From the NCBI GenBank assembly GCA_016209015.1, contig JACQWY010000022.1, positions 248,001 to 312,000 on the forward strand: DNA of 64,000 nucleotides, read 5' to 3'. The translations under genes and the position numbers were made by a program. The notes under the pieces were generated by a model that searched no databases, was not told where the DNA came from, and was given only the letters and a program-made list of their open reading frames with translations. This DNA is from Gammaproteobacteria bacterium. GTDB taxonomy: Bacteria; Pseudomonadota; Gammaproteobacteria; Ga0077536. Shown one piece after another: positions 35,910 to 38,875 of this stretch; positions within the stretch are counted from its first letter, which is position 1, and each line of letters begins with the position of its first letter.

Positions 35910-35981
35910 GCCCGCATTATCACCGATTGCGGCACGCAGCGGGGTTTTGATCCGACAGGCGCGCGGCGGCGTATCGAGCGC

Positions 35982-36272
35982 ATGTCGACTTCATTGCGCT
36001 CCCTGTCCCGCCTCTGCGCCGTCGCGTTCCCGCTCGCGGCCTGCGCCGCAACGCCCGAGCCTTGCGCCGATCCCGGTCAGCGGCCCGTCGCGATCGCCGC
36101 GTCCTACGGCGGGCCGATCGAGTTCGAGGTCACGCGCAACGGCGAGCGCGTCGGCCGGCACGTCACGACGTTTGCCGGGCGCGCGGGCCATCTGTGCGGA
36201 TGGCTGTGGTGCGCGCCCCGAGGGGCACGGGATCAAGGGCGGATCTCGGGTCGCTCATGCTGTCCGACATAG
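35982..36272 (+). pseudogene. 3'-truncated DUF6134-like gene
   Basis: Starts normally with a secretion-type N-terminus (SLSRLCAVAFPLAACAAT) and a first domain strand IEFEVTRNGERVGRHVTTF, the opening pattern of DUF6134-like periplasmic proteins. After about residue 70 the similarity stops and the frame runs on through the tail of the convergent DUF1365 gene, overlapping it by 40 bases. Normal members are about twice as long. Genes of this sort accompany sigma/ChrR stress loci in other proteobacteria, so this is probably another eroded member of the locus. Family assignment is tentative. Confidence 0.5.
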
Positions 36273-37021
36273 AAGGTCTCGCGGTTCTGCAGGTGTCCGG
36301 TCGTGAGCGGCAGGCCTTTCAGCCAGAGCTTCAGGGCTTCCCAATGGATGCCGGCGACGACTTTCAGCGTCATGAGCGGAAAGCCGGCGAGGAGGCGCAG
36401 CAGGACGCCGCGCGTGAATTCCCTGCGCTCGCCTGCGAACACTGCGTCGAGACGCGGTCCGTGCTCGTCGGCGTAGCGGATGTGGAGCTTCAGACGCGCG
36501 TCCGGCGCCTTGAAGCGGAAGCAGTAGCCGCCCGCCATGTCGAAGAACGGCGAGACGAACAGGCGCTTCGGGCAGCGTTGGGTGATCGTCGCGGCGGCGT
36601 CCGGCGCCACGGGCAGCACGTAGGAGAGACGCTCGCCGAACGTGTTCGAGACTTCGTAGACGGTCGCGACGAGCCGCCCGGCCGCGTCGTGGCAGTAGAC
36701 GACGGAGAGCGGGTTGAACACGTAGCCGAGCAGGCGCGGCAGCGTCAGCAGGCGATAGCGCCACGGGCCCGCGCCGACACCCGCGCCGGCGAGCGCAGCA
36801 TCGAGATGCGCCTTCAGCGGCGTGCCGTCGCCCGGACCGTGGTCGCGATCGTGATAGGCGAGCAGCGCACGCCGGTTCACACCGAACAGCCAGCCGCCGC
36901 GATCGAGCGAGCCCAACTCGTCGAGGTCGAGATAGAGAAAGCCGAGCCCGTAGCGCAGGCGGTGCGCGCGCGGCGCGTGGCGGTGATGACTGACCGCGCC
37001 GACGTAGAGGGCGGAGTGCAT
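36233..37021 (-). CDS. DUF1365 (COG3496) protein of the ECF/ChrR regulon
   Basis: Protein of 262 aa, full length for DUF1365. It has the family start SALYVGAVSHHRHAPRAHRL, then YVFNPLSVVYCHDAAGR, TYEVSNTFGERLSYVL (as VYEVSNTFGE) and the C-terminal helix TLKVVAGIHWEALKLWLKG. The family is of unknown biochemistry but nearly always lies with a flavin amine oxidase and a cyclopropane-fatty-acid synthase homologue in singlet-oxygen or lipid-stress operons run by RpoE/ChrR. Here the ATG follows the end of the wrecked amine oxidase gene by two bases, while the Cfa gene is absent. Its promoter is the minus-strand ECF promoter at 37508-37533. Confidence 0.88.
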   Translation of the reverse strand: MHSALYVGAVSHHRHAPRAHRLRYGLGFLYLDLDELGSLDRGGWLFGVNRRALLAYHDRDHGPGDGTPLKAHLDAALAGAGVGAGPWRYRLLTLPRLLGYVFNPLSVVYCHDAAGRLVATVYEVSNTFGERLSYVLPVAPDAAATITQRCPKRLFVSPFFDMAGGYCFRFKAPDARLKLHIRYADEHGPRLDAVFAGERREFTRGVLLRLLAGFPLMTLKVVAGIHWEALKLWLKGLPLTTGHLQNRETFYVGQHERPEIRP

Positions 37022-37023
37022 GC

Positions 37024-37474
37024 TCAGGCGGCGCTCGGCAGGGTCTGCGCGGGCAGGGTCGGCGGCGCGTGCACGCGATCGGCTCCCGGGTCCACGTCCC
37101 ACGGCCGCGCGAGCCCGCCGAGCAGCTCCGCGACGCGCAGGCCGGACTGCAGCGCGTCCTCGGGGAAGCCGAAGCCGAAAGAGCGAGACCGCGAACGACA
37201 TGTCGCTCGCCTGCGTCGCGACGCCGAGCTCGGCGAACAGCGCGACGAGATTCGGATAGTTCAGCGCGTTGTAGGCGATGAAACCGGTGTCGACGGGGAT
37301 GCGCCGGCCGTCGCAGGTGACGTCCACGGTATGGCTGTGGCCGCCGACGCAGTCGTTCTGCTCGAACAACGTGACGTCGTGGCGCCGGTCCAGCAGCCAG
37401 GCCGCGCCCAGGCCCGCGATGCCGGTGCCGATCACCGCGATGCGCTGGCGCGCGGGGTCCGTTCGATGCGTCAT
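37024..37474 (-). pseudogene. Internally deleted FAD-dependent amine oxidase (COG2907 type)
   Basis: The first ~95 codons are a good flavoprotein N-terminus (IAVIGTGIAGLGAAWLLDRR, FEQNDCVGGHSHTVD, DTGFIAYNALNYPNL, ATQASDMSFAVS). At about 37181-37188 the homology jumps in a different frame to the last ~50 residues of the same family (FGFGFPEDALQSGLRVAELL). About 300 codons are missing and the junction is out of frame. Read without a shift, the frame runs on into the DUF1365 gene as low-complexity Arg/Ala sequence. Loss of function is therefore likely, though the promoter and downstream gene are preserved. Confidence 0.8.
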
Positions 37475-37507
37475 GGTCCTTGTCTCGTCGAGGTTGCCGG
37501 GGTGTAC

Positions 37508-37533
37508 TACGGGCGAGCCCGCGGAGCGGATCA
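37508..37533 (-). promoter_or_regulatory. ECF (RpoE/ChrR-type) promoter facing the amine oxidase/DUF1365 operon
   Basis: On the minus strand TGATCC (37533-37528), 16 bases, then CGTA (37511-37508), the form recognised by ECF sigma factors paired with ChrR. The expected transcript start is about 27 bases before the amine oxidase ATG. Confidence 0.75.
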
Positions 37534-37546
37534 GCGGCGCGGGCGG

Positions 37547-37572
37547 TGATCCATCTGCCGCGCCCCGCCGTA
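37547..37572 (+). promoter_or_regulatory. ECF (RpoE/ChrR-type) autoregulatory promoter
   Basis: TGATCC (37547-37552), 16 bases, CGTA (37569-37572), identical in sequence and spacing to the divergent promoter at 37508. The start point would fall at about 37579, so an ATG at 37581 would be nearly leaderless; the in-frame ATG at 37593 may be the true start. Confidence 0.75.
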
Positions 37573-37580
37573 GTGGGGCC

Positions 37581-38231
37581 ATGACGAGATTCATGACCAT
37601 ACCGACCGCAAGAGACCCCGGCGAGGTCGCCGCCGTCATCCCCCTCGAGGGCGCGGCGCAGACTCCGGCGGGCGTGGATCCGGCCGTCGCCGCGGAGACG
37701 GCCCTGCTGCTGCGCGTGAGAACGGCGCGCGACGAGGGCGCCTACCAGAGCCTCTTCGCGCAGTTCGCCTCGCGCGTCAACGGCTACCTCCTGCGCGCCG
37801 GCCTCTCGCACGCCGACAGCGAGAACGTCCTGCAGGACATCATGCTCGCGGTGTGGCAGAAGGCCGACTTGTTCGACCCGGCGATCGCCTCCGCGCGGAC
37901 CTGGATCTATTCGCTCGCGCGCAACCGGCTCATCGATCTCAAGCGCGCGGAGAAGCGCGAGGCGAGCGCGTTCGATCGCTACTTCCTCGAGCGCAGCGAC
38001 GACCTGCTGCAGGAGGAGGATCACCTCGCGCGCGCCTTCGGCACGAAGCTCGCCGCGCTGCTGCGCGAGCTGCCGCCGGAACAGGCCCGGGTCATCGTGA
38101 TGACGTATGTGGAAGGCAAGTCGCACCGCGAGATCGCCGACGAGCTCGGATTGCCCGTCGGCACGGTCAAGTCGCGCGTGCGGCTCGGTTATCAACGCCT
38201 GCAACTGAGGGTGGGGGAGGCCGAGGCATGA
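37581..38231 (+). CDS. rpoE: ECF RNA polymerase sigma factor (RpoE/ChrR pair)
   Basis: Group IV sigma factor of about 216 aa. Region 2 is at ~50-125 (LFAQFASRVNGYLLRAG, ENVLQDIMLAVWQKADLFDP, ARTWIYSLARNRLIDLKR) and region 4 at ~150-210 (LPPEQARVIVMTYVEGKSHR followed by EIADELGLPVGTVKSRV). It overlaps the anti-sigma gene by ATGA, so the two are made in step. With ChrR it should answer singlet oxygen or related lipid stress. Its own promoter and the divergent one upstream carry the cognate consensus. Start 37581 or 37593; the later codon leaves room for a short leader. Confidence 0.93.
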   Translation: MTRFMTIPTARDPGEVAAVIPLEGAAQTPAGVDPAVAAETALLLRVRTARDEGAYQSLFAQFASRVNGYLLRAGLSHADSENVLQDIMLAVWQKADLFDPAIASARTWIYSLARNRLIDLKRAEKREASAFDRYFLERSDDLLQEEDHLARAFGTKLAALLRELPPEQARVIVMTYVEGKSHREIADELGLPVGTVKSRVRLGYQRLQLRVGEAEA

Positions 38232-38875
38232 GCATCTCGCATCATCCGGATCTCGCCTGGCTCCTCGATTTCGCGGCCGGCAATCTCAGCCGCGGCACGG
38301 AGCTCGTGCTGTCGGCCCATCTCACGGTCTGCGCCGAGTGCCGCGCCGAGGTTGCGCGCGCGGAATCCTTCGGCGCGCGCCTGCTCGCCGATGCCGCGCC
38401 CGCGGCGCCGAAGCTCAGCGCCCAGGACGTGCTGCTCGCCGCGAAGCAGGGTGCGTCCGCCTCGGCGGGCGTGACGCGCAGCCGCGGCCGGATCCGCGAT
38501 CTCGAGGGCTTCGTGAGCACCTGGCTCGAATGCAGCCTCGGCGGCCTCGCCTGGCGCTGGGGCGGCCCGGGGCTGCGCATGGCGAACCTCTCGCGCAGCG
38601 ACGGCGAGCGCATCTGGCTCCTGCACGCGAAGCCGGGCACGGTGCTGCCGCGGCATACGCACCAGGGTGCGGAGCTCACGCTCGTGCTCAAAGGCGGTTA
38701 TTTCTCGCGGAGCGAAATCTATTCCACGGGCGACGTCGAGGACGCGGACGAGGAGACGCTGCACCAGCCCGTCATCACGACCGGCGGCGAGTGCCTGTGC
38801 CTCGCGGTCACGGAAGGGCCCTTGAAGTTCAGCGGTCTCGTGCCGCGGCTCGTGCAGCGGCTGATCAAGATTTGA
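38228..38875 (+). CDS. chrR: ChrR-type zinc anti-sigma factor with cupin domain
   Basis: Cytosolic anti-sigma factor of 215 aa. The N-terminal zinc anti-sigma domain (~1-80) has the HHP near residue 5 and H-x3-C-x2-C in SAHLTVCAECRAEV; the C-terminal cupin domain (~100-200) has PRHTHQGAELTLVLKGGY and further histidines and acidic residues that bind a second metal needed to sense singlet oxygen. It binds and silences the sigma factor encoded directly upstream. Length and both metal sites look intact, so the regulatory module is probably functional although much of its adjacent target operon is decayed. Confidence 0.93.
   Translation: MSISHHPDLAWLLDFAAGNLSRGTELVLSAHLTVCAECRAEVARAESFGARLLADAAPAAPKLSAQDVLLAAKQGASASAGVTRSRGRIRDLEGFVSTWLECSLGGLAWRWGGPGLRMANLSRSDGERIWLLHAKPGTVLPRHTHQGAELTLVLKGGYFSRSEIYSTGDVEDADEETLHQPVITTGGECLCLAVTEGPLKFSGLVPRLVQRLIKI

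Follow-up and report, generated by a model that had tools for sequence, protein, structure and literature searches.

The closest described systems are the RpoE-ChrR circuits of Rhodobacter sphaeroides, Pseudomonas syringae and Shewanella oneidensis, in which a sigma factor is paired with its anti-sigma factor. The sequence TGATCC-N15-GCGTA is given for Pos19 of R. sphaeroides (PMC5036791), UfaD (a desaturase), UfaO and UfaM of the same species are described as making furan fatty acids (PMC7380195), and RSP_1090/91, located immediately upstream of rpoE-chrR, are described as required for full activation of RpoE (PMC7074977). For the RpoE/ChrR-like PSPTO_1043 of P. syringae, the consensus TGATCC-N16-CGTA was obtained from ChIP-seq and qRT-PCR (PMC5507510). 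Promoters of this kind are listed in Shewanella for rpoE2 and SO_1987, the start of rpoE2 transcription being an A downstream of the -10 element (PMC4336711), and in Vibrio the motif is given as TGATC-N16-18-CGTAW (PMC5241685).

The window, that is, the whole stretch of 64,000 nucleotides analysed here, contains two copies of this motif within a stretch of 65 bp. Very probably, an ECF11-type RpoE-ChrR switch for oxidative (singlet-oxygen/organic-peroxide) stress has its divergent control region here and is autoregulated through it. The two elements and the sigma-factor operon are located as follows.

37547-37572, plus strand: predicted ECF11-type promoter of rpoE-chrR (-35 TGATCC at 37547-37552, N16, -10 CGTA at 37569-37572); exact match to the published consensus, conserved
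37508-37533, minus strand: predicted ECF11-type promoter toward ufaD-ufaO (-35 TGATCC at 37533-37528, N16, -10 CGTA at 37511-37508); exact match, conserved
37581-38231, plus strand: rpoE, ECF sigma factor (Pfam Sigma70_r2 and r4)
38228-38875, plus strand: chrR, anti-sigma factor with a C-terminal cupin (TIGR02451, Cupin_7; H6, H31, C35 and C38 present)

As described in an earlier sequence-only reading of this DNA, both elements are exact, lie on opposite strands and have spacers of identical length: the minus-strand element (37533 to 37508) reads TGATCC-GCTCCGCGGGCTCGCC-CGTA and the plus-strand element (37547-37572) reads TGATCC-ATCTGCCGCGCCCCGC-CGTA, each with a spacer of 16 bases. The -35 hexamers of the divergent promoters are 13 bp apart, and RNA polymerases bound at such close-set elements may hinder each other. 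Matches to TGATCC-N14-18-CGTA number three in the window against 0.23 expected, and three matches were reached in none of 100 shuffles.

The family labels given to the genes in that reading were confirmed by profile searches, namely sigma-70 regions 2 and 4, ChrR, DUF1365 and the N-terminus of an FAD/amine-oxidase protein. RpoE passed the cut-off for both Pfam PF04542 and PF08281 (regions 2 and 4). ChrR scored 165.5 bits against TIGR02451 (cut-off 124.5) and also matched Cupin_7, while its score against the narrower NCBIfam equivalog NF051881 was 138.1, under the cut-off of 300. In an alignment of 12 homologues, H31, C35 and C38 of the HxxxCxxC motif were invariant and H6 was nearly so; these four residues are presumably the zinc ligands of ChrR. 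The label of an ECF11-type system is predicted from sequence and rests on what was found together at this locus, that is, sigma regions 2 and 4, an adjacent ChrR-type anti-sigma factor, and TGATCC-N16-CGTA before the sigma gene.

By analogy with characterised homologues, loss of ChrR under singlet oxygen or organic peroxide would free RpoE, and the free RpoE would direct RNA polymerase to both back-to-back promoters; the plus-strand promoter would re-make rpoE-chrR, leading to autoregulation, and the minus-strand promoter would directly transcribe the furan-fatty-acid operon ufaD-ufaO. Control of the promoter pair by ChrR is thus predicted from homology. The divergent ChrR-controlled regulon proposed in the sequence-only reading stands in so far as the motif equals the published RpoE-ChrR consensus, the pair is conserved, and it faces rpoE-chrR on one side and homologues of ufaD and ufaO on the other. 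The same proposal falls short in that the motif is weak as a query for targets and the gene called amine oxidase is broken in the assembly (see below for both).

ChrR was present in 26 of the 36 genomes of the family to which the window belongs. Among 29 family loci with rpoE, two were cut by a contig end, and the remaining 27, including that of the window itself, were searched for TGATC and CGTA with spacers of 15-20. The motif was found in both directions at 19 of these loci, facing ufaD only at four, facing rpoE only at three, and in neither direction at one. A larger set was composed of 118 ChrR loci, of which 30 came from the family search, 80 were named (the best 80 of 116), and eight were class-level (L137-L144); 21 weaker class-level loci (L145-L165) matching part of ChrR only were left out. 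After removal of six loci without an rpoE match, the rpoE-side motif was found at 80 of the 112 loci listed, duplicates included, and was absent upstream at the other 32, five of which have little upstream DNA. The presence of the motif before rpoE-chrR itself at so many loci is the usual sign of autoregulation. It also speaks against the idea that the promoters belong to one or more other ECF factors and that RpoE-ChrR is just a neighbour; this idea is very improbable, and in its favour several strains of P. fluorescens have a putative site before phrB and no evident homologue of PSPTO_1043 (PMC5507510).

Identical stretches were merged to give 63 unique rpoE-side loci, drawn from the set with the best 80 of 116 named. 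L116, with an rpoE match that was not in frame, was left out; its ATG placement is the same as that of its Porticoccus relatives. A spacer of 16 bases was found in 58 of these 63 motifs. A divergent ufaD is located at 47 of the 89 de-duplicated loci listed with uncut upstream DNA, and of these 47 unique loci, 40 carry the ufaD-facing promoter and 35 carry both promoters. A fixed distance between the two promoters was considered as a functional feature and rejected, since this distance varies widely among relatives. Many of the loci are related and the counts are not independent; a count by 31 clusters of the sigma factor (60% identity), given below, is the fairer one.

The sequence-only reading further recommended the motif as a query for other targets, and in this role it performed poorly: the genome yielded 26 matches at spacings 15-17 against about 18 expected from the counts at other spacings. 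In total, 197 matches to TGATCC...CGTA were found in the 5.7-Mb genome by summing over the 31 spacings from 5 to 35. Spacing 16 alone gave 16 matches against a mean of 6.0 per other spacing (Poisson P ~5e-4), and spacings 15 and 17 gave seven and three, respectively. Three of the 16 sit in the locus under study, and without them 13 are left (P ~0.009). The genome-wide excess at spacing 16 is real but small, amounting to only about 10 sites. The other spacings served as the control in place of the reversed pattern, which gave no matches at spacings 15-17 and nine at 5-35 and was not relied on because its sequence composition differs. From these numbers one might argue that both sites of the pair arose by chance in intergenic DNA rich in GC and that the genes use other promoters, given that about six matches per spacing are expected genome-wide and that 12 of the 26 matches at spacings 15-17 fall within predicted genes (as predicted by a simple codon-score gene caller). 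The pair, however, is kept in the same positions across the family and in other lineages, and the number of matches in the window was never reached by shuffling; such a coincidence is exceedingly improbable.

The candidate targets outside the locus are two peroxiredoxins, an HlyD-type adaptor and a P-type ATPase. One peroxiredoxin gene has its candidate site 64 nt upstream. This site was absent within 200 nt of the gene in all 17 relatives with at least 65% identity, and among the 26 loci examined it was found in the genome of the window only. Since the site of this gene, the sole candidate tested for conservation, is not conserved among relatives, an extended regulon is not claimed. At locus L006 (1501-1570), TGATCC-N16-CGTA is followed by an ATG at +8 that opens a frame of eight codons, the stop of which stands just ahead of a peroxiredoxin start; this frame could be a leaderless leader peptide, or chance.

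Outside the divergent pair, only a third site, located beside the gene cluster, has support in another genus. This site, which had not been reported in the sequence-only reading, and the gene that follows it are as follows.

35948-35973, plus strand: third site with the motif TGATCC-N16-CGTA, followed at a distance of 8 nt by the ATG at 35982
35982-36272, plus strand: truncated DUF6134-type lipoprotein gene, the frame of which breaks off near the 3' end of ufaO

Two homologues of the window lipoprotein hit DUF6134 in Pfam, and no Pfam family was found for the truncated protein itself in a scan that ran in a different reading frame. In two species of the genus g4, the motif precedes the DUF6134-type gene at the same distance of 8 nt, in this case to an in-frame GTG, not an ATG. 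At 11 other loci examined, several of them weak or doubtful matches, no motif was found before this gene. In eight relatives that have both genes on a single contig, longer DUF6134-type homologues are located on the strand of chrR at a distance of about 6-10 kb; in the window this distance is about 2 kb. If the assembly is correct, a large part of the cluster, between the lipoprotein gene and ufaO, therefore seems to be gone.

The minus-strand promoter faces the following features.

37477-37481, minus strand: Shine-Dalgarno-like AAGGA of ufaD, the ATG of which lies 33 nt after CGTA
37020-37474, minus strand: ufaD remnant, in which codons 1-98 are fused near 37180 to an out-of-frame C-terminal tail (tblastn against the intact relative L057)
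36233-37021, minus strand: ufaO homologue (Pfam DUF1365, 247 bits), full length, the only DUF1365 match in the genome

The ufaD remnant lacks residues 100-398 of the protein of the relative (about 300 codons, or about 0.9 kb), and its out-of-frame tail matches residues 399-437. No second copy of ufaD was found in the genome, in which a single weak N-terminal FAD-domain match was detected (38% over 72 residues), nor was a close ufaM found, the best CMAS protein being 33-36% identical to UfaM of the relatives. In the relatives L057, L061 and L066, by comparison, full-length ufaD, ufaO and a CMAS-type open frame stand in a row; the CMAS identity of the third frame was given by Pfam for L057, by 62.6% identity to L057 for L061, and by eye for L066, and the open frame that comes next in L057 and L066 is one which we take to be an MFS transporter. 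The strongest CMAS gene in the genome of the window (C9:122666-123442 of G000, L169) has TGATCC-N15-CGTA inside its coding region on the opposite strand, probably by chance.

Altogether, the output side is decayed in this assembly: of the core regulon of ECF11 systems (intact ufaD, ufaO and ufaM), ufaD is broken and no close ufaM is present, and the third promoter drives a truncated gene. It is quite possible, though we lean the other way, that assembly errors account for the break in ufaD, the lack of ufaM and the shortening of the DUF6134-type gene, and that the organism has an intact, ordinary operon, considering that two truncations lie within about 1.3 kb, that they are seen in one assembly of the species, and that the ufaD join adjoins a short TTCGGC repeat. 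Against such errors, the genome is rated 100% complete and yet a search of it did not yield the missing middle of ufaD at any other place, and the best CMAS protein is distant from UfaM of the relatives, as noted above.

The rpoE side of the pair differs from the ufaD side in the placement of the start codon. The rpoE ATG of the window lies 8 nt downstream of CGTA, at the point where transcription from an ECF promoter would be expected to start, so that a leaderless rpoE mRNA is predicted. The transcript starts expected in the sequence-only reading, 6-10 bases after CGTA, would indeed place the 5' end of this RNA at the rpoE AUG or within about 3 nt of it, a consequence that had gone unnoticed there; this step, taken from position only, is less certain than the rest of the proposed mechanism. 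For the ufaD transcript, the leader would be about 25 nt long and include a Shine-Dalgarno sequence. No Shine-Dalgarno-like 4-mer precedes the rpoE ATG of the window. The rpoE frame is open upstream, past the promoter, and a second in-frame ATG is located at 37593.

The same placement was found in many of the 63 unique loci listed. With the first in-frame ATG taken from +5 on, and ATGs before +5 ignored, it falls at +8 (14 loci), +9 (18 loci) or +10 (two loci) in 34 of the 63. Of the 29 loci that remain, 21 have it at +25 to +33; no locus among the 63 has it at +12 to +21. Counted in any frame, an ATG at +8 or +9 is present at 35 of the 63 loci, against a mean of 1.8 and a maximum of nine in 2000 shuffles, and in 32 of these 35 it is in the sigma frame; all 32 in-frame starts at these positions are ATG. 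Among the 31 sigma clusters, 15 are wholly of the leaderless type, 14 are wholly not, and two are mixed. The leaderless type makes up 18 of 22 loci from the family of the window and 16 of 41 others, the latter including records titled Maricaulis, Rhizobium, Magnetovibrio, Porticoccus and Nitrincola. The ufaD side provides an internal control, with an open in-frame ATG at +7 to +10 in none of 40 promoters; the first in-frame start is located at 30-37 nt in 24 of these, an in-frame GTG or TTG stands at +7 in three, and no start was obtained in two. On the ufaD side in genus g9 (L039, L040 and L047), an ATG at +8 is followed by a stop after two more codons, and the ufaD start lies at +35.

A rival explanation, doubtful in our view and yet a serious one, accepts the promoters as real, takes the ATG at +8 as incidental, and supposes that translation of rpoE begins at the second ATG (37593) or further downstream, or takes place on a longer mRNA. 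Another in-frame ATG stands before the conserved domain in 30 of the 34 leaderless-type loci, and at 20 of the 63 loci, including that of the window, an in-frame ATG is found before +5, upstream of or inside the promoter. For ecfF of B. japonicum, the mapped start overlaps the annotated ATG, and a later codon was preferred by the authors (PMC3420878). Four of the 34 leaderless-type loci carry a Shine-Dalgarno-like 4-mer before the ATG at +8 to +10 and the other 30 do not; the test is a weak one, leadered loci being positive in only 10 of 23. By the same weak test, 25 of 28 second ATGs have no such 4-mer, which goes against a later start, as does the finding that in four of the 34 loci the conserved domain is preceded by no other ATG, although GTG and TTG codons are present in that region. 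An incidental ATG is also disfavoured by its frequency at +8/+9, about 19-fold over that in shuffled sequence, together with its location in the sigma frame in 32 of 35 cases. In Porticoccus and Nitrincola (L106, L112, L113 and L115), a Shine-Dalgarno sequence stands right after CGTA, and a longer mRNA from another promoter may exist in addition.

A precedent for a leaderless mRNA made upon self-activation might be sought in sigE of Mycobacterium tuberculosis, but is contested: the leaderless mRNA is assigned to the promoter P2, transcribed by SigE itself, in a review (PMC10027907), and is tied to a WhiB7-linked promoter, with a SigE-type promoter upstream, in another source (PMC4921905). No report of leaderless ECF11 rpoE was found in the open-licence PMC literature with searches combining leaderless with ChrR or ECF terms. 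Three points weaken the leaderless reading and raise the probability of a later start: the in-frame ATGs before +5, the use of GTG in genus g4, and the disagreement over sigE as a precedent. With these points taken into account, we propose tentatively, with confidence slightly short of even, that a large share of ECF11-type loci in Alpha- and Gammaproteobacteria combine a leaderless rpoE with a leadered divergent target, and that the species of the window keeps the regulator after loss of the furan-fatty-acid output.

If the placement of the start codon is functional, a widespread sigma factor would be made from a leaderless mRNA upon its self-activation, which would constitute a feedback point, and stress that alters ribosome behaviour could then tune synthesis of the sigma factor separately from that of its targets. 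In R. sphaeroides the furan-fatty-acid output is needed for turnover of ChrR under singlet oxygen, and here, if the loss is true, the regulator persists without this output. The apparent loss of ufaD would offer a natural experiment on the question whether switching off ChrR depends in general on furan fatty acids.

Among the characterised systems that the locus resembles, RpoE-ChrR (ECF11) of R. sphaeroides with its operon RSP1087-1091 shares the sigma/anti-sigma pair, the ufaD and ufaO homologues immediately upstream, and, at Pos19, the promoter consensus; it differs in that ufaD of the window is broken and the subsequent genes of the operon are missing. In P. syringae PSPTO_1043/1042, the identical motif is described before the sigma gene and at several of the targets obtained by ChIP-seq (PMC5507510), but most homologues of the core targets are located at a separate locus. 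For S. oneidensis rpoE2-chrR and SO_1987, which carries the next locus tag, TGATC(C/A)...CGTA promoters are listed, as in the window (PMC4336711); the neighbour SO_1987 is, however, a gene for a Lon-domain protease and not ufaD, and its divergent orientation is deduced from the locus tags. M. tuberculosis sigE is an ECF sigma gene with a leaderless mRNA, as is predicted for rpoE of the window, but belongs to another ECF group and another phylum. Compared with these systems, the promoter pair shows a known stress circuit and a known type of promoter region in their ordinary form, to which the pair alone adds little; what the locus adds is the placement of the rpoE start codon and the decayed output side.
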